This document shows, one piece after another, positions 46,832 to 58,096 of a stretch of 64,000 nucleotides of DNA. How positions within the stretch are numbered: the first letter of the stretch is position 1; every line of letters starts with the position of its first letter. A program made the translations under genes and the position numbers. Source of the stretch: Leptolyngbyaceae cyanobacterium RU_5_1 (GTDB lineage Bacteria > Cyanobacteriota > Cyanobacteriia > Leptolyngbyales > Leptolyngbyaceae); contig JAAUSG010000001.1 in NCBI GenBank assembly GCA_012034055.1, positions 1-64,000 of the forward strand, in the 5' to 3' direction. A model generated the notes under the pieces. That model did not search any database, was not told the origin of the DNA, and was given only the letters and a program-made list of their open reading frames with translations.

Positions 46832-49659
46832 TCACTTCAAGTAGGCAACGGTAACGCCAGCGCCGCCATCTGCTCGGCTTGCTAGCTCATAGCGATCGAC
46901 CAGCGGATGCTGCTGAAGAAAGGCGTGAACGCCCTGTCGGAGTTTGCCAGTCCCGTGTCCATGAATGATCCAGATGGCACCGCCTACACTTTGGGCTTCG
47001 GACAGGGCGCGATCGATCGCAGGTTCCGCATCAGCAACCCGGCTACCGCGAATGTCGATGGTGTTACGCGAGGTGCGGAGAGTTGGAGCAGAAGAGGCAG
47101 GGGGAGCAGGGGGAGCAGTTGAATTTTGAATTTTGAATTTTGAATTTTGAATTTTGAATTCTGTTGACTCCTGACTCCTGACTGGCTTTTCACCATCCAG
47201 GGATTCGATGTCGTCCAAGGCGATGGTCATTTTCATCTGGCCAAAGCGGACAGTCAGTTCGTCATTGTCATTGGCAGCGGTGAGCACTTCAGCGGTTTGT
47301 CCCAGGCGCGGAATGCGAATACGATCGCCCACTTGCGGTCGAAAACCGGGTTTGGGCTGGGGTTTGGCTTGTCGAGAGGGTAAGTGGCGATCGCTCAATT
47401 GGCTCAGTGCCTCGGTGGCTTGCTGGGCCGCTTGAGCCGTTACTGGACCTTGTTGCAACTGGCGAATCACCTGGGCAATTTCCCGCTTTGCCTGGGCGAT
47501 CGCGTCTTGAACGGCCTGTTCCTGGGACAACTGCAGCGCTCGCTCCCGCTCTTGCAGTGAAGCAGCCTTGCGCGAAACCTCTTGATATAGTCGCTCGGCA
47601 CTTTTCAACAACTGTTCTGCCTCTTGCGACTTGGTTTCCTGCCGACGACGTGCTCCTCCAATCCCGCAATCACAGCATTAACATCCTGAGAAGCCCCACC
47701 AACATAGGTTTGAGCCGCTTCAATAATTTCTTCCCTCAGACCCAAACGTTGAGCGATCGTCAACGCATTCGATCGCCCCGGAATGCCCCACAACAGTCGA
47801 TAGGTGGGTGCCAGGGAAACATCATCAAACTCTACGGAGGCATTCTCAAACCGCTCATCCTGATACTTGAGTGCCTTCAACTCTCCAAAGTGAGTCGTGG
47901 CGATCGTCAGTCCAGCGTGATCTGCGAAATATTTCAGTAAAGCGATCGCCAACGCACTTCCCTCAGAGGGATCGGTTCCAGCTCCGACTTCGTCAAGAAG
48001 AACTAGGGTAAGAGGGGAAGGAGGAGAGATTGCAGATTGCAGATTGTAGATTGCAGATTGGGAATTCTCCGTGTCTCCGTGTCTCTCTATCTCCTCATCC
48101 TCCCTTACCTCCTCTGCTTCCCCATCTTCCCCATCTCCCCCATCTCCCTCTGTCCTTTCTGCCTCCTTGCACCTCGCACCTCGCACCTCGCACCTTACTC
48201 CCAGCGCCTCCAAAATTCGGCTGATCCGTCGAATGTGTCCAGAAAAGGTGGACAGGCTTTGTTGCAAGGATTGTTCATCGCCAATGTCGGCTAGCACCTG
48301 ATCAAACCAGGGCAACTCGACGGGTTCACGGGCAGGCACAAATAGTCCCACCTTTGCCATCAAAACGGCTATGCCAAAGGTTTTCAGTGTGACGGTTTTG
48401 CCCCCGGTGTTGGGTCCAGTAATCGCAACCACACGAATATGGGGTTGCACCACTAAATCAACCGGGACAACCGGTTTCCCCTGCTCATGCTGCTGCTGCC
48501 AAACCAGAAGCGGATGGCGAAGCTGGCGGAGGGTGATGGGTTCGGATTTTGGATTGTAGATTGTAGATTTTAGATTGTTGGATTGAGGATTAGAGCCTGG
48601 TTCTGGGGCATTGGACTGATCGTCGGATTGTTCCAATCTACAATCTGCAATCTGCAATCTAAAATCACTGAACCGAGGCGGATTCGCCCCCAACCAGAAG
48701 CTATAGCGGGCACGGGCAGTAGCCAGATCCAGGGTGGTGGCGATCGCCAGTAGCCATTCCAAATCGGGCTTGACAACCGCCACTTTTTCGGTCAGGGCTT
48801 GGCGGATGGCTTCTTCTTCGACTTGCTCTTGCCGCTGCAGTTGGCGCAGTTGGTTGTTCAGGTTGACGGTTGCTTGCGGTTCAACATACAGCGTGGCACC
48901 GCTCATGGAGGTGTCGTGAACAATGCCAGGAATCGCATCTTTCTGCGGCGCTTTGACGGGGATCACAGACCGACCAGCGCGTTGGGTAATCAAGTGTTCT
49001 TGAACTGCACCCGCTTTGCGTTGCAGGATACTTTGCAAGATGCCGTAGACGCGATCGCGCCCCTGACGCAGTTGCTCCCGAATGCCTGCCAGCTTCGGAC
49101 TGGCCCGATCCAGGACATCGCCCTGATCATCAATGCAGTGATGGATGTCCTGCTCTAGTTCCGGATAGGTTCGCAGATCCTGAACCAGATCATTCAAAAC
49201 CAGCAAATCTGGATGGTCATCAATCACCCGCCGCAGCGTTCTTGCCCCAGCTAATGTAGTGGCGATCGTCAGCAACTCTTCGCCCAATAGAATCCCTTGG
49301 CGCTCTGCACGTTCCAAAAATTCGCCAATGTCGCCAATTCCGTCAAAACTCAACCCCCCTGTCAAGCGATTCTCTAGCTCATAAACGTCCCGCGTTTGCG
49401 CTAACAACGCCAGAGTTTCGTCTTGGCTAACGGGAATTTTCAGATTACGAGCCGCGATTGCACCCAGTTTTGTCGCCGCAAACGTTGAAAGGTGCTGGCA
49501 AAGCCGCGACCATTCCAAAAGTTCAAGAGTCTCCGCCTGTATCAAATTATCTAAAACGATGACTGCTCCTCCATTGTAGGGTAGAGGACAGGGGTCGAAG
49601 ACTCGCTGCCGTTTACTCAACAGGTTGTAATGATTAAAAAGACGATAGAGTCGCAACAA
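46832..49659 (-). CDS. mutS2: MutS2-type ATPase/endonuclease, frameshifted and with three repeat insertions
   Basis: The N-terminal frame carries the clamp and lever regions (TLELLEWSRLCQHLSTFAAT; DTSMSGATLYVEPQATVNLN), Walker A TGPNTGGKTVTLKT, and Walker B LVLLDEVGAGTDPSEGS. It breaks near 47650-47652 (a missing base after GEEEQ-like GLEEH); the next frame has RRRQETKSQEAEQLLKSAER and ends with a Smr domain (TIDIRGSRVADAEPAIDRAL, IWIIHGHGTGKLRQGVHAFL). Three low-complexity inserts are present: after ARYSFWLGANPPRFSDF, between the P-loop and Walker B (rich in D, E and G), and before the Smr domain (FKIQNSKFKIQNS). MutS2 acts on stalled ribosomes and on branched DNA. The start is uncertain; clear homology begins near 49560. 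Confidence 0.87.
47120..47160. repeat. GAATTTT heptamer array inside mutS2
   Basis: Five to six GAATTTT units read on the gene strand as FKIQNSKFKIQNS, in the linker between the core and the Smr domain. Confidence 0.9.
48030..48215. repeat. Low-complexity repeat block inside mutS2 (Walker A-B region)
   Basis: TGCAGATTGTAGAT-type, CCATCTCCCC-type and GCACCTCGCACCTCGCACC repeats give, on the gene strand, RCEVRGARCKEAERTEGDGG and SQSAIYNLQSAI. The normally short loop between Walker A and Walker B is enlarged by about 60 residues. Confidence 0.75.
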
Positions 49660-52658: not shown

Positions 52659-53135
52659 TCATTCGCCAGACATATTTTGCTGACTGATTTGCTTATACAA
52701 CGCTTCATCTAATTGCCCCTTGCCAGTTTGAAACAGCCATCGCTCTAACCGACGGTTTTGATCCGTAAACTGTTTAGATTGGTCATTCTGTTTTGCTACG
52801 ACTAACCCATTGGAAATCAGTATTTCGTTGTAACCTTCAATGTTCTCGTTCGGTTTCGTGACAATCAATCCGCGATACCCCAGCCCCTCATTCACAGAGC
52901 TTTTTCCCTGGTGTTGAGGCAACGCTTCAAGTCGGCTGACAAATTCTTTGGCTTCTTGTGAGGTTAGCTCCCACTGGGGATTGGGTCTACCGCTAAATAC
53001 ATCCAGTTCTACTTGCATTTTTTCACCTCCTGAAAACGGGGTAACACATCCAAGTAAAGCAAGGAAAGTTAGGGAAAAGAATAAACCTGTAGTCTTTCCA
53101 GAAGTGGATTGAAGAAGTGAATTGGTTCGTTTCAT
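52659..53135 (-). CDS. Lipoprotein with VFSGRP domain
   Basis: A 158-residue lipoprotein (signal FFSLTFLALLGC, lipobox LLGC-V). The mature part begins with MQVELDVFSGRPNPQWELTS, continues GLGYRGLIVTKPNENI and ends in a charged tail, RRLERWLFQTGKGQLDEALY. The block [DN]VFSGRPxPxW ... GLG[YF]RGL is shared with the N-terminus of the protein at 55.2-56.1 kb. I know no named domain for it. It is the downstream end of the peptidase island and should sit at a membrane. ATG 53135 is selected (MKRTNSLL); a GTG 12 nt upstream is in frame. Confidence 0.65.
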   Translation of the reverse strand: MKRTNSLLQSTSGKTTGLFFSLTFLALLGCVTPFSGGEKMQVELDVFSGRPNPQWELTSQEAKEFVSRLEALPQHQGKSSVNEGLGYRGLIVTKPNENIEGYNEILISNGLVVAKQNDQSKQFTDQNRRLERWLFQTGKGQLDEALYKQISQQNMSGE

Positions 53136-53310
53136 AATAGAACACACAAACTAGCGTTAGCGTCACTGCAACTCGGCGATCGCCTGATTTATACCTGCTT
53201 GAAATGACGTTCAAAACGACTGGTAAGTTGCGGCGAAATGGCTATGGCTTTTAGGTTTGGATCGTGTTTTTTATACTTTTGAAAGTTATTAAAAGATAAT
53301 GCCTTTAAGT

Positions 53311-53538
53311 TTAAATCGCCTGCATCTCTTGATCCACCTCAACATCAACGACACCGGACACACTCTTTAGTTCTTGCATCCTGGATTGAGAAGCTTCGCC
53401 AGTAATGATGCCAGTACCAGGCAGCACGTTATTCACTTGCATTCCCATTGATTGTAAAGCGGTGGCTACAGACTGAATTTCTAGTCGATGTTGGTCATCA
53501 ACCGTGACGATAATCTGCTCTACGTGTTCGTCAGACAT
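53311..53538 (-). CDS. Free-standing I9-like (subtilisin propeptide type) inhibitor candidate
   Basis: A 75-residue acidic protein: IIVTVDDQHRLEIQSVATAL, QSMGMQVNNVLPGTGIITGE and LKSVSGVVDVEVDQEM. The beta-alpha-beta-beta-alpha-beta pattern and the ending in V-x-x-V-E-x-D match the I9 fold of subtilisin propeptides and small cyanobacterial or fungal inhibitors. A strong AGGAGG lies 7 nt before the ATG. It ends just downstream of the subtilase gene on the same strand (128-nt gap), suggesting an inhibitor or chaperone for that enzyme. It has no signal peptide. Confidence 0.6.
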   Translation of the reverse strand: MSDEHVEQIIVTVDDQHRLEIQSVATALQSMGMQVNNVLPGTGIITGEASQSRMQELKSVSGVVDVEVDQEMQAI

Positions 53539-53665
53539 ACCTGACCTCCTGTTAGCTATATTCCTTGGGCAACTGCCTTCACTATAGCTATCGCGAAGTG
53601 CTGAGTGTCTCAGCTTCAGGTACTGATTTAAGGGTGGGCAATGCCCACCCTTAGTTAGGCTGGCG

Positions 53666-54973
53666 TTACTGCGGGGACTGTGCCAGACCGCTACCTACAT
53701 CCGCGCTGGGTAACGGCATCCGCCTGGCTGTCCAGATTAGATAGAGCCACAGTAATGGGCCACGAACGCCGTATGCCTGGGAATACAGGGCCGCAATCCC
53801 GGCCACATGCGGAGTCGCCATGCTCGTACCTCTGAAAGACGCATAACGTCCTTTATTCATCGGTACCGATGAGTACACTGCGACTCCAGGAGCCGCGATA
53901 TCGACACTCGCTCCTAAGTCTGGGCCAGAGGTAGCTGAGAAGGAAGCCAACTGCAGTCCACTATCAATGGCTGCAACGGACATAATTGATGGGCTATTGG
54001 CGGGTTGTCCAACCGTACCGGGGGGCATGGAAACTTGTTGTCGATGGTTGCCTGCGGCAGCCACAATCAAGCACCCATTTTCCAGGGCCCGGCGACCGAC
54101 CGTTTCATAGGCCGTTGACGGGGTAGGCACCGTATTTCCTAACGACATCGAGATCACCTGACACTGATTGGCGATCGCCCATTCCATCCCAGCCAGAATC
54201 CAGGCACCATTCCCACTACCAGAATTGCTCAGAACCTTGCCCACATAAATGGTCGATTCGTAGGCGACCCCATACCGGCGGCCGTTCAGATCCTTAAATC
54301 CACAGGCCGTGCCAATGCAGTGAGTGCCGTGACCTTGCCCATCCTGAACCTCTTCTCCCGGTACGAACGACTGTGACACAATCGATCGCCCCCTAAAATC
54401 GGGATGGTTCAGATCCATGCCCGTATCCAGTACAGCCACTCTAATCCCCCGCCCGGTATAGCGTGAGGTGGTCGCTTTGGTTGCCTTCAAGCCCCAGGTA
54501 GATTGGGCATCGTCAGCAAATACCGCCATTGGCTGCGCTCCATTCCCGGTCTCGTGCGGTGCTGTTGTGGCAACCTTCTGATACAGGTGATCGGCGGCAT
54601 CGCGATAGCCCTGCAAATAATCTTTCTGTAATTCAACCTCAAGGGCGTAGAAGACCCGCTCTGGTTCAACGGCCAAAATCGCTGACTCCTCGCCTGCGGC
54701 GGACATCACTCTGCTCAAAGCCTCATCGTCCATCGAGACGACGGCCACTCCTAGAGTGGGGAACACTGCCCCACCCACTTCGTCGAGTTGACTCAGGTCT
54801 AGCGCAGACTCTGGGAAGTCTGCCGCATTGAGGAGTCCTGCAATGCCAGCCTGATCTCTCAGGGCAGCCACCCCTTCCGTTACGGAATTATCGCGGAACG
54901 TAACAATGTATCGTCCTGTTGTTTCATCTGCCTGGGCGGAGTTTGGAACGGAAAAACTAGCTTGTTCAGACAT
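53666..54973 (-). CDS. Subtilisin-family (S8) serine peptidase
   Basis: A 435-residue subtilase. The N-terminal I9-like propeptide (RYIVTFRDNSVTEGVAALRD ... ILAVEPERVFYAL) is followed by the catalytic triad in VAVLDTGMDLNHPDFRG (Asp), GQGHGTHCIGTACG (His) and FRGTSMATPHVAGIAALYSQ (Ser), with oxyanion Asn in LIVAAAGNHRQQ. It has no classical signal peptide; its start is MSEQASFSVPNSAQADETTG. The C-terminal end, ARRMPLPSADVGSGLAQSP, recurs in a remnant at 56.2-56.4 kb. AAAGGTG precedes ATG 54973. It is the centre of the co-oriented peptidase island. Confidence 0.94.
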   Translation of the reverse strand: MSEQASFSVPNSAQADETTGRYIVTFRDNSVTEGVAALRDQAGIAGLLNAADFPESALDLSQLDEVGGAVFPTLGVAVVSMDDEALSRVMSAAGEESAILAVEPERVFYALEVELQKDYLQGYRDAADHLYQKVATTAPHETGNGAQPMAVFADDAQSTWGLKATKATTSRYTGRGIRVAVLDTGMDLNHPDFRGRSIVSQSFVPGEEVQDGQGHGTHCIGTACGFKDLNGRRYGVAYESTIYVGKVLSNSGSGNGAWILAGMEWAIANQCQVISMSLGNTVPTPSTAYETVGRRALENGCLIVAAAGNHRQQVSMPPGTVGQPANSPSIMSVAAIDSGLQLASFSATSGPDLGASVDIAAPGVAVYSSVPMNKGRYASFRGTSMATPHVAGIAALYSQAYGVRGPLLWLYLIWTARRMPLPSADVGSGLAQSPQ

Positions 54974-55046
54974 AAACACCTTTTATTGATTGTTTGACGG
55001 TTGTGATCGGTAATCCAACACTTCTCGGTTTGTGTTGTCAATTTAG

Positions 55047-55131
55047 AGATCCCCCCCAATCCCCCTTGGCAAGGGGGGCTTTCAAACCAAGACTGGTAGG
55101 GGTTCCCCCTTAATAAGGGGGGCTAGGGGGG
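55047..55131. repeat. Dispersed C/G-run repeat, CCCCCTTGGCAAGGGGGGCT type
   Basis: Runs of C and G in mirror image (GATCCCCCCCAATCCCCC, TTGGCAAGGGGGGCT, CCCCCTTAATAAGGGGGGCT) form alternative hairpins. Similar arrays are widespread in cyanobacterial intergenic DNA. It sits between the VFSGRP protein and subtilase genes. Confidence 0.75.
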
Positions 55132-55213
55132 AGAGCGCAGAGCGCACGCTTCGCGAACGATGCAGAGGCTTCAGAGCTTCTACAAATAGTCCACAGATCG
55201 GGTACGGCAGCGT

Positions 55214-56143
55214 TTAATTAATCTTTTGACTTCGACAGGTGTAGAAGTAACCGCAGAAGATGGTGTATGGCCCGCGATCGCAGGTAGCTGGGTTAGAAAT
55301 AACTTTGCCACTGTTGTCAACATTCCGAACAGCTGTTGAACCGGGTTTGTGTGCCCAATACCCTTCCCGCATCAGGCGATACCAGTGAAAATCATTAAAG
55401 CCTGGACCGGGTGCAATCACCAATGCCACCAGATAGCGAGGTGCCTCCGAATCTGGGAAGCAATCATAGCGGCGATGCAATCCGTCGCATAGGGCAGCAC
55501 GGGTTACTTCTGCACAGTTAATGGCAGTGTACATATGACCGCAACCCCGCCCAGGCTGGGCGAAGGTATCTGTACGCTTATTGCTCGCATAGTTATAGCA
55601 GTTGTTGCGTGAGCGGATGTTAGGGTCATTGTTCCAGAACCCAGGATTGTAAGGCGATGTATCATAGGTACAGGACGCCGCTATCTCAACGGGTGCCTCC
55701 ACTGCCATCATCTGAGGCAATCCTTCAACATCGGGAACGGATACTCGACTTGTGGTCTCTAGCTGCTGTTGCAGGAAACTCTGGAGCATTTCTCCCAGGG
55801 GCAATCCCCCTTCGCTGATAGAAGCGGATTCTGGAGAGATTTCAGCACTACTCATAGAGCTAATCAAACGCTCAGCAATCTCGTTTGCTTTAGAACTAGT
55901 AGCACCAGAACCCGCCGCCATATACATGCTGGCGGGCAGTTCAAAGTCTTTAGACAGCTCATCAGAAAGGGGTTCAATCATCAGACCCCGAAACCCTAAT
56001 CCAGCTTCTACTGGTGCTGTCTGGGACACAACAGTACGATTTTTGGCAATCTCTTTAAGCATTGTGCGAGCTTCTTGCTCGTCTGTAATAATCCATTCAG
56101 GGTCGGGTCTTCCAGAAAAGACATTGGCAGTAATTCGTAGCAT
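55214..56143 (-). CDS. VFSGRP-domain protein fused to a candidate cysteine-hydrolase domain
   Basis: A protein of 309 residues. Residues 1-100 are a VFSGRP domain (TANVFSGRPDPEWIITDEQE, VEAGLGFRGLMIEPL). A Ser/Glu-rich linker follows. The C-terminal 150 residues start SCTYDTSPYNPGFWNNDPNI and hold NNCYNYASNK, then DFHWYRLMREGYWAHKPGST and VRNVDNSGKVI, a Cys ... His ... Asp/Asn order that resembles papain/CHAP-type hydrolases; several further Cys suggest an exported protein. The hydrolase idea is inference. ATG 56143 has AGGAG 8 nt upstream. No signal peptide is visible, which is odd for such a Cys-rich protein. Confidence 0.6.
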   Translation of the reverse strand: MLRITANVFSGRPDPEWIITDEQEARTMLKEIAKNRTVVSQTAPVEAGLGFRGLMIEPLSDELSKDFELPASMYMAAGSGATSSKANEIAERLISSMSSAEISPESASISEGGLPLGEMLQSFLQQQLETTSRVSVPDVEGLPQMMAVEAPVEIAASCTYDTSPYNPGFWNNDPNIRSRNNCYNYASNKRTDTFAQPGRGCGHMYTAINCAEVTRAALCDGLHRRYDCFPDSEAPRYLVALVIAPGPGFNDFHWYRLMREGYWAHKPGSTAVRNVDNSGKVISNPATCDRGPYTIFCGYFYTCRSQKIN

Positions 56144-56242
56144 CAATCATCTCCTAGCTTGTAAACGAATACGCCATCGATTGAATTTGCTATTCCGCAA
56201 TGGTTTGATTATGCCTGTAGCGATCGCACCTCGACACTACCC

Positions 56243-56446
56243 TTACGGGTGATTTCCCGCTGTCAACAAATATTGGCGAATCAGGGAGCCTGCACCAAGC
56301 CCTGAACCAACATCAACGGAAGGTAAGGGCAATCGTCGCGCCAATCGCGCCAGCAAATTCCAGAAATCTTGTCCTCTCAGTCCAGTTGCCTCGGCATGAA
56401 GCGCAGCAATACCGGTCAGATGAGGCGCATCTATTTGTGCAGTAGA
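56243..56446 (-). pseudogene. Subtilase C-terminal remnant
   Basis: The reading frame ends with QIDAPHLTGIAALHAEATGL and ARRLPLPSVDVGSGLG, clearly the tail of an S8 peptidase (compare ATPHVAGIAALYSQAYG and ARRMPLPSADVGSGLAQ at 53.7 kb). The GTSMA motif that carries the catalytic Ser reads STAQIDA instead, and everything upstream is unrelated. It is a leftover of a duplicated subtilase gene. It lies 100 nt upstream of the VFSGRP fusion gene. Confidence 0.65.
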
Positions 56447-56567
56447 AAATTGATGCTTACGCTGTTGCGATCGCATCCTCCGCAGAATGCTAATTTTTGG
56501 GGTTCTCCGATAAGTTGAAATACTTTTCGGTTGATCGATCAACTCGTTAATTTAGATTGACAAACCA

Positions 56568-57005
56568 CTAAGAGCGAATTTCGACAGCTTGCGCTGTGAG
56601 AGCCATGCTGTCGAAGTTAGACGGTTGTCCGCTGATCTGAACGCGAACTCCGGGCTTCAAGCTCCAGGGATTGATGGTGTTACCCTGTTGAGTCACCGTT
56701 GTGTTGGCTTGCAGAGCCACATAATAGCGCCCCGAATTTGTCGTGACCGTCAATTGCAAGGGCGATGTTTCCATCACTTGTTCAACAGTGCCTTCAATGA
56801 TCATGGCAATTTGGGGCGTGGCAGCGGTGGGCGTGGATGAAACCGATTGATCAGAAGAAACTGATTGATTGGGATCGTAGATGCTCATAGCAGCGGGTTC
56901 CTGGACGGTGGGCAGCGGAGAAGGCGCGGCTTGATAGCTTGTGCAAGCCAGCAACAGTGAACCCACGCCGATCAAACTGCCCCAGAGAATGGTGTTGAAG
57001 TGCAT
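56568..57005 (-). CDS. Lipoprotein with OB-like C-terminal domain
   Basis: A 145-residue lipoprotein (signal TILWGSLIGVGSLLLACTSY, lipobox LLAC-T). After a Ser/Pro/Gln-rich spacer, residues 70-145 read IAMIIEGTVEQVMETSPLQL, VTTNSGRYYVALQANTTVTQ and WSLKPGVRVQISGQ, a beta-rich domain resembling small OB-fold proteins. No family is assigned. It is co-oriented with the V8-like protease upstream and the subtilase remnant downstream. AGGAG and AGGAT precede ATG 57005. Confidence 0.65.
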   Translation of the reverse strand: MHFNTILWGSLIGVGSLLLACTSYQAAPSPLPTVQEPAAMSIYDPNQSVSSDQSVSSTPTAATPQIAMIIEGTVEQVMETSPLQLTVTTNSGRYYVALQANTTVTQQGNTINPWSLKPGVRVQISGQPSNFDSMALTAQAVEIRS

Positions 57006-57163
57006 ATCCTATCGTACTCCTGGAAAAAGATTGTTGTGCGCGATCGCGCCTGATCTCTATTAAGCCTGCTGCTGCATCAATCGTCGGGATGGTTTCCAGA
57101 ACTGATACAAAACCGGGTCGCGGCGATTTCACCCCTCTCCGCCGCGACCTGTCTATGATCGGT

Positions 57164-58096
57164 CTAGCAGGGAATATTTCGCCAAGCTAGCATATTGTCG
57201 AATACGGGTTTGGTGATCCGGGTCGCGCTGTTGGGACAACCACCATAGGCATGCACACCCACCGCATGACGTTCACCATTCAGAAAGCGCCAAACTGGGC
57301 TACCACTCTGTCCGCCAATGGTATCAATCATGTAGTAGATCTTGAGATCTTCAACGCGACTGATCGACCCTGCATTGAACCACATCGTGCCAACGGGCTT
57401 GTCTGCGGGATAGCCAGCCGTATTCACAAACAAGTTGTTGAGCGAGTCGTTGGAGAGGTGAGCAAAGCCAAACCAGCCGACTCGATTGCCCAAATTGCAG
57501 TTGGGCAGAATGATGGCACCGTAGTCAAATTCGGGTTTGCTGTCTTGAGTCCAACCCGTGACACTGCGGAAGGAAGTGCCCACTTGAGAACCATAGGGAC
57601 GAGCATTGCCATCCATGCCAGGCACAACTTCGATCGAACGTGCCCAGCCGCCATTGGCTCTGCTGAAAACACAGTGTCCTGCCGTCATGACCGTGCGAGC
57701 ACCGATAAACCAACCGGTGCCAACAAATTGAGCACCATCGGGAAAGGTAATGAACAGTTTGCAAATCCAGCGCCAGGGCAGGTTGGTCGCAGGGGTAATG
57801 CGAGTGCGATCGTCGGCACCACATACAGTTTCTGGAGACAAATACACAGTAGCAGCCGCATCGGGCAAATTAGCAAGGGCAGGTGCGCCAACACCATCAG
57901 CACTGACTTCACCAAGTGCTCGAGTGGGATCAAACCCAGCAACCATTTCAATCTCACCTTGAGTCGATTCGCCCTGAAAGTCTGTTGCAATCAGTGATTC
58001 TCCGCTCAATGTGCTACCGTCGCTTGATACTGCTTCGTGCAGTTTGGCAGCAACGGTTGCTTGCTGCTCAGAGGAAACCGTTTCGTGCATTCCCAT
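57164..58096 (-). CDS. V8/glutamyl-endopeptidase-like serine protease (chymotrypsin fold)
   Basis: A 310-residue protein. After an N-terminal region of about 110 residues with no signal peptide (MGMHETVSSEQQATVAAKLH), the protease domain has the triad in GARTVMTAGHCVFS (His), KPEFDYGAIILPN (Asp) and DTIGGQSGSPVWRF (Ser), with strands FVGTGWFIG and HAVGVHAYGG. The S1B group cleaves after Glu or has broad use. The N-terminal region may be a propeptide: GGTLSG-type DGSTLSGESLIATD. Two Cys (GHC, CGADD; last residue C) could make disulfides. It is the first gene of the peptidase island. Confidence 0.92.
   Translation of the reverse strand: MGMHETVSSEQQATVAAKLHEAVSSDGSTLSGESLIATDFQGESTQGEIEMVAGFDPTRALGEVSADGVGAPALANLPDAAATVYLSPETVCGADDRTRITPATNLPWRWICKLFITFPDGAQFVGTGWFIGARTVMTAGHCVFSRANGGWARSIEVVPGMDGNARPYGSQVGTSFRSVTGWTQDSKPEFDYGAIILPNCNLGNRVGWFGFAHLSNDSLNNLFVNTAGYPADKPVGTMWFNAGSISRVEDLKIYYMIDTIGGQSGSPVWRFLNGERHAVGVHAYGGCPNSATRITKPVFDNMLAWRNIPC

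Follow-up and report, generated by a model that had tools for sequence, protein, structure and literature searches.

The window analyzed here, a 64,000-nt stretch of DNA from Leptolyngbyaceae cyanobacterium RU_5_1, carries on its minus strand a two-gene module that recurs in about ten phyla and is not named as a family in Pfam, NCBIfam or PHROGs. One gene encodes a fusion protein, V-C, in which an N-terminal domain marked by the motif VFSGRP (V) is joined to a C-terminal domain with invariant residues of catalytic type (C); the other encodes V as a free protein. A second conserved pair, a leaderless S8 subtilase followed by a free propeptide-like protein of the I9 type, lies in the same island. 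From the gene pairing, the co-variation of the partners, the packing of the domains in the model and the neighboring protease–inhibitor pairs, we infer, with about even confidence, that V-C is a cysteine hydrolase (most likely a papain/NlpC-type protease) with V as its prodomain, that free V inhibits or chaperones it in trans, and that S8 and I9 are a second such pair. In this scheme, V would be a regulatory prodomain packed on the catalytic C domain, and free V would be a loose copy of that prodomain, held in the membrane as a lipoprotein in RU_5_1. The leaderless subtilase and the free I9 propeptide would follow the same principle, and the island would consist of cassettes of two genes each, one for a protease and one for its inhibitor. 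That the enzymes are proteolytic, that V inhibits, what the substrates or targets are and that the leaderless enzymes are exported are all predictions of the scheme.

All seven genes of the island (52659-58096, minus strand) are open reading frames in one orientation, as the sequence-only reading had reported. The island contains the following features, given with the evidence for each.

57164-58096, minus strand: leaderless V8/glutamyl-endopeptidase-like serine protease (Trypsin_2 match and structure matches)
56568-57005, minus strand: possible DUF5666-like (OB-like) lipoprotein (sub-threshold match)
56243-56542, minus strand: subtilase remnant, the C-terminal piece of a second subtilase (sequence identity)
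55214-56143, minus strand: V-C fusion of 309 aa without a signal peptide; VFSGRP domain (V) at the N-terminus, putative cysteine hydrolase (C) at the C-terminus (relatives, AlphaFold2 model, Foldseek)
55823-56143, minus strand: V part of the fusion, approximately residues 1-107 (FSGRPxPxW and LGxRG blocks are conserved; model)
55217-55672, minus strand: C domain of the fusion, residues 158-309 (invariant columns in 68 sequences)
55598-55600, 55385-55387, 55349-55351 and 55316-55318, minus strand: invariant C-domain codons for Cys182, His253, His265 and Asp276, respectively
55011-55175, strand not assigned: interspersed repeat between V-C and the intact subtilase (more than 40 matches in the genome)
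53666-54973, minus strand: leaderless S8 subtilase P0003 with intact catalytic motifs (PF00082, E 7.6e-50)
53311-53538, minus strand: free I9-type propeptide-like protein P0004, 75 aa (gene pairing; best PDB profile matches are subtilisin propeptides)
52659-53135, minus strand: free V protein, a proposed membrane-anchored inhibitor; lipobox ALLGC, its Cys encoded at 53046-53048 (gene pairing; model pLDDT 92)

In the window, 2.1 kb holding the subtilase, the free I9 gene and the repeat separates V-C from free V. In the nearest relative, Phormidium LEGE 05292 (V-C 84% identical), V-C is adjacent to the gene of a free V lipoprotein, and in FACHB-63 the gap between the two is 5 nt. The window is a rearranged version of a pair that adjoins in its relatives, and the pair may have been split by the S8–I9 cassette or by a rearrangement around it. 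The repeat, whose matches are spread over the draft genome, has inverted stretches of the CCCCCTTATTAAGGGGG type. Elsewhere in the window, a MutS2-like open reading frame (47605-49659) contains in-frame stretches (e.g., QSAIYNLQSAIS and CEVRGARCKEAE) that resemble translated interspersed repeats inserted into a coding gene.

The three genes upstream of V-C differ in how well they can be assigned. The V8-like protease matches Trypsin_2 (E 4e-7), and its closest solved structures are glutamyl endopeptidases (E 1.6e-20). Its closest plasmid relatives sit amid other peptidases, with no constant partner gene among them. On a Tropicibacter plasmid (L129:1864-5555), the V8-like gene is flanked by genes for a radical SAM protein and an M23 metallopeptidase, possibly a peptide-processing cluster. 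The lipoprotein scores 17.9 bits against a DUF5666 cut-off of 27, a weak match on which it may be called OB-like or DUF5666-like, and its membership of the V-C system is putative. The subtilase remnant is 72.5% identical to the subtilase of locus L043 and 42% to intact P0003, and its nearest relative is the FACHB-63 subtilase; because of this difference, and because only a C-terminal piece is present, it is the 3′ part of a different, decayed subtilase copy.

In a scan of about 85,000 genomes, 124 relatives of V-C were found and 80 loci were kept; the pairing counts below use 79 informative loci, as one further locus stops at a contig end. The hosts include Cyanobacteria, Actinobacteria, Alphaproteobacteria and other Proteobacteria, Bacteroidota, Myxococcota, Nitrospirae, Acidobacteria, Gemmatimonadota and Planctomycetes (Brocadia), together with one contig labeled as a Nitrososphaerales archaeon, a metagenomic assignment that may err. 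V-C is rare in cyanobacteria (2/386 genomes), and plasmid copies occur. A viral scan with the fusion as query returned one broken copy (L097). Neither V nor C matched any Pfam, NCBIfam or PHROGs family, none of 68 fusions and 59 free V proteins had a consistent Pfam match, the PADLOC models of anti-phage defense gave generic protease matches and none for V-C or free V, and no mention of the motifs was found in the literature searched. A V profile recovers both copies from the genome (1e-38 and 6.5e-12). The claims made from the sequence that the domain occurs twice in the island and cannot be named thus hold: the two copies are true homologues of a domain that is real and conserved. Two matches of single proteins were rejected, one to alpha-L-arabinosidase 6d25 (phmmer E 0.0027), which disappeared with the family profile, and one of free V to VWA (E 0.025, below the cut-off). 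Two other arrangements were noticed. On a Vibrio plasmid (L013:2625-6705), amide hydrolases are clustered: a V-less C-domain protein lies beside a C45 peptidase, a protein resembling N-terminal asparagine amidohydrolase and another with an asparaginase domain. In the myxobacterial loci L062, L079 and L086, a small (~82 aa) Tat-signal-like protein is encoded just downstream of V-C, with or without a free V.

Cys182, His253, His265 and Asp276 are invariant in the C domains of 68 diverse fusions from many phyla, within the conserved blocks NNCYNYA, QPG, DxHW and HKPG (HKxG). The spacing C-x70-H-x11-H fits a triad of the papain/NlpC type, and judged by these residues C appears to be a thiol hydrolase, in agreement with the earlier suggestion of a possible hydrolase as the fusion partner. 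An invariant Cys, an invariant His and a third polar residue are what papain-like or NlpC/P60 enzymes have; a significant family match to them was found neither with Pfam, nor with PDB profiles, nor with Foldseek against the PDB (best E 0.19). Most entries in the weak Foldseek list for the V-C model are thiol proteases, among them USPs, the C39 peptidase of PCAT1 and RavD, and each entry is insignificant by itself. The model (55217-56143) does have significant fold matches to three predicted giant-virus proteins, F2Y2U4, M1HB16 and Hokovirus A0A1V0SF80, which presumably cover C. Neither a solved structure nor a family match identifies C as a peptidase, and it is a candidate one. Three further conserved cysteines (158, 210 and 297) hint at an oxidizing environment. 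The AlphaFold2 model of V-C has a mean pLDDT of 89 and a pTM of 0.86 with a disordered linker at 135-151; because this pTM extends across two domains joined by a disordered linker, V probably packs against C. In an Anaeroplasmataceae phage, a protein encoded near a holin gene (L016:4249-6459) has a signal peptide, a V8-like protease and a C domain in one chain, uniting two enzymes that are neighbors in the window.

Among the alternatives to a protease, C could be a peptidoglycan amidase or another NlpC/CHAP-type thiol hydrolase or transferase, with V as its regulator. The C-H-H spacing resembles that of NlpC/P60 and would suit such an enzyme, but the genes next to V-C encode proteases rather than wall enzymes, and the phage just described, in which C is fused to a V8-like protease, has hosts that are not known to have a cell wall. 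We regard a non-protease C as rather unlikely. Our confidences in this and the other readings are not exclusive of one another, and a C domain of this kind is compatible with V as a regulator.

In 62 of the 79 loci, the gene immediately downstream of V-C, in the same orientation, encodes a free V, whose domain starts between -1 and 217 nt past the fusion stop; in the remaining loci free V is divergent (2/79), upstream (1/79) or absent (14/79). A tree of V domains puts all 76 fused copies together and 59 of the 64 free copies in a second group, and because the two groups are nearly separate, an old duplication that has been kept as a pair is indicated. The distances among free V proteins also correlate with those among C domains (r 0.70; 0/1000 permutations). 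An inhibitor in trans is not obligatory, since 14 loci lack an adjacent free V. Two other observations speak against such an inhibitor as well. First, cyanobacterium G197 has an orphan gene for an exported free V (L150:1477-1950), with no V-C found in that genome. Second, the model of free V has no Foldseek match in the PDB and no likeness to I9 or known inhibitors.

Some of these observations also favor V as a binding or targeting domain for a substrate, a surface or a partner, in which case free V would be a non-inhibiting adaptor, receptor or decoy. A V fold without a counterpart among known inhibitors, loci without a free V and free V anchors that differ between phyla would all be expected of such a domain. 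Against it, the model packs V on C, the gene pairing and the co-variation with C are strict, and the neighboring genes form other protease–inhibitor pairs. We consider this reading unlikely and prefer V as a prodomain with free V as its trans-acting copy.

No V-C fusion has a signal peptide. A hydrophobic N-terminal stretch (a lipobox, signal peptide or membrane anchor) is present in 15 of 65 free V proteins and the rest are bare, as counted with a strict threshold and mechanically chosen start codons. Phormidium, Microcystis, FACHB-63 and Spirosoma likewise combine a soluble V-C with a free V that is exported, so that the soluble and membrane-anchored forms noted in the window are not confined to it. 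However, most free V proteins are without an evident anchor or signal peptide, and a surface system controlled by proteolysis, as had been proposed for the island, is therefore not general. The co-occurrence with proteases and inhibitors stands, but V more probably serves as a component of a protease and of its inhibitor than as a surface receptor or a target of the neighboring proteases. Free V proteins that carry a signal peptide or lipobox accompany fusions that do not, and a meeting of the two would require another export route for the enzyme.

This asymmetry could also be explained by effectors and immunity: V-C and the leaderless proteases encoded beside it would be effectors that reach the surface or interior of rival cells, and free V, often an exported or lipid-anchored protein, would protect the producer. 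Three observations are in keeping with this: in Gram-negative bacteria, a leaderless enzyme that has conserved cysteines is found next to a partner that is exported; the distribution is patchy and includes plasmid copies; and G197 has an orphan free V. On the other hand, an immunity gene would be expected always to be adjacent, and the loci without free V depart from that; a free V homologous to the enzyme's own N-terminal domain would be unusual for an immunity protein, and most free V proteins have no evident signal. In addition, no secretion-system gene or delivery family recurs among the shared neighbors of V-C. We find a role in rivalry improbable and retain a protease with its prodomain-like regulator as the preferred reading.

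In the second pair, P0003 has the S8 catalytic motifs VAVLDTG, GHGTH and GTSMATPH with Asp, His and Ser, belongs to the subtilases and has no signal peptide in its sequence. Its small neighbor P0004 has no Pfam match, but the best PDB matches of a profile built from 12 P0004-type relatives are Tk-subtilisin propeptides (E 0.0024, full length), and the profile also hits an ordinary subtilase from a myxobacterium in its propeptide region (5e-6). By homology to subtilisin propeptides, P0004 thus belongs to I9, as had been recognized by eye. It is only weakly similar to the N-terminal region of P0003 itself (hhalign probability 20%). A free I9 gene directly follows a P0003-class subtilase in 16 of 17 loci, five of which are plasmid records reached independently of V-C, and the subtilase with its free I9 is a second conserved pair. 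In the myxobacterial V-C genomes, a search for a P0003-class subtilase with a free I9 gave weak matches and no separate I9 gene.

P0003-class subtilases (E <1e-70) occur in 12 of 50 V-C genomes, and in five of these 12 the S8 gene lies within ~3.5 kb of V-C/V (Roseicella, Paractinoplanes, FACHB-63, a proteobacterial MAG and Spirosoma). Rough arithmetic for random placement, with a 10 kb target in a genome of ~6 Mb, gives an expectation of ~0.02 against the five seen. The five genomes come from Cyanobacteria, Proteobacteria, Bacteroidota and Actinobacteria, and three of them have the gene order V-C, V, S8, I9. The corresponding position in Phormidium is occupied by a Peptidase_C1 (E 3.5e-12) and a chagasin-type C1 inhibitor, I42 (E 5e-21). 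The commonest Pfam families among 109 nearest neighbors are S8 (4) and C1 (3), and the families with two matches include M28 and M20, whereas for 109 control genes taken from these loci at distances above 4.5 kb, no peptidase is among the 25 families listed. The sequence-only reading had proposed to look for VFSGRP proteins together with proteases and I9 elsewhere, and S8 and I9 genes do accompany V-C/V in five other genomes, or C1 and I42 in their place; as a general association the idea holds less well, since ~90% of V-C loci are without an S8/I9 neighbor. That scarcity, together with the repeat and the gene remnant inside the island, is what would be expected if V-C/V and S8/I9 were independent accessory genes that met at random in an accessory region, a view that we regard as highly improbable given both cassettes together in five further genomes of four phyla, three of them in the same order.

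A wider proposal is that V founds a new class of prodomains and inhibitors for new leaderless cysteine peptidases, and that this two-gene cassette is stacked with S8–I9 and C1–I42 into modular islands with signal-peptide-independent export and membrane-bound inhibitors. We offer it tentatively and think it doubtful as a whole. If V does inhibit C, the module would be a new protease–inhibitor pair and would provide a testable rule, in which an enzyme with a prodomain is followed by a gene for the free prodomain.

Compared to known systems, the V-C/V module shows several partial likenesses. First, papain-like cysteine peptidases carry an N-terminal inhibitory I29 propeptide, and free I29 copies act as inhibitors. 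V-C/V likewise has a proposed N-terminal prodomain and free copies of it, but C has no sequence match or significant fold match to C1, nor V to I29. Second, the C domain shares with NlpC/P60 a Cys followed by a His and a second His about 12 residues on, while it has no Pfam match or significant Foldseek match; its NNCYNYA, QPG and HKPG motifs are not known from NlpC/P60. Third, the phage C domain weakly matches DUF7689 (PF24738; E 0.029), whereas none of 68 fusions does so at E 0.1; a search of the genome with DUF7689 gave no matches, and its controls likewise gave none.

The principle of a protease with a stand-alone propeptide-like inhibitor is already known, while the enzyme family described here is not. 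POIA1 of Pleurotus is a stand-alone subtilisin propeptide-like inhibitor. SUB1-ProM of Plasmodium, a stand-alone protein of the same kind, is a proven potent inhibitor (PMC6993865). As in the island, a free propeptide-like gene lies next to subtilase genes, and these proteins may serve as the pattern on which the free I9, and by analogy free V, can be understood. V differs in having no sequence relationship to I9 and in accompanying a putative cysteine hydrolase; if the proposed rule is true, it would nevertheless have a proven parallel in subtilases. In Myxococcus xanthus, the subtilisin-like protease PopC has no signal peptide, and its partner PopD forms a complex with it and blocks its secretion (PMC6434023). 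The V-C/V pair has no counterpart in that system. P0003 resembles PopC in being without a signal peptide and in having a small partner gene directly downstream (16/17 loci). Inhibition of C by V would also draw attention back to an open problem that PopC has posed, the way in which proteases that have no signal peptide exit the cell.
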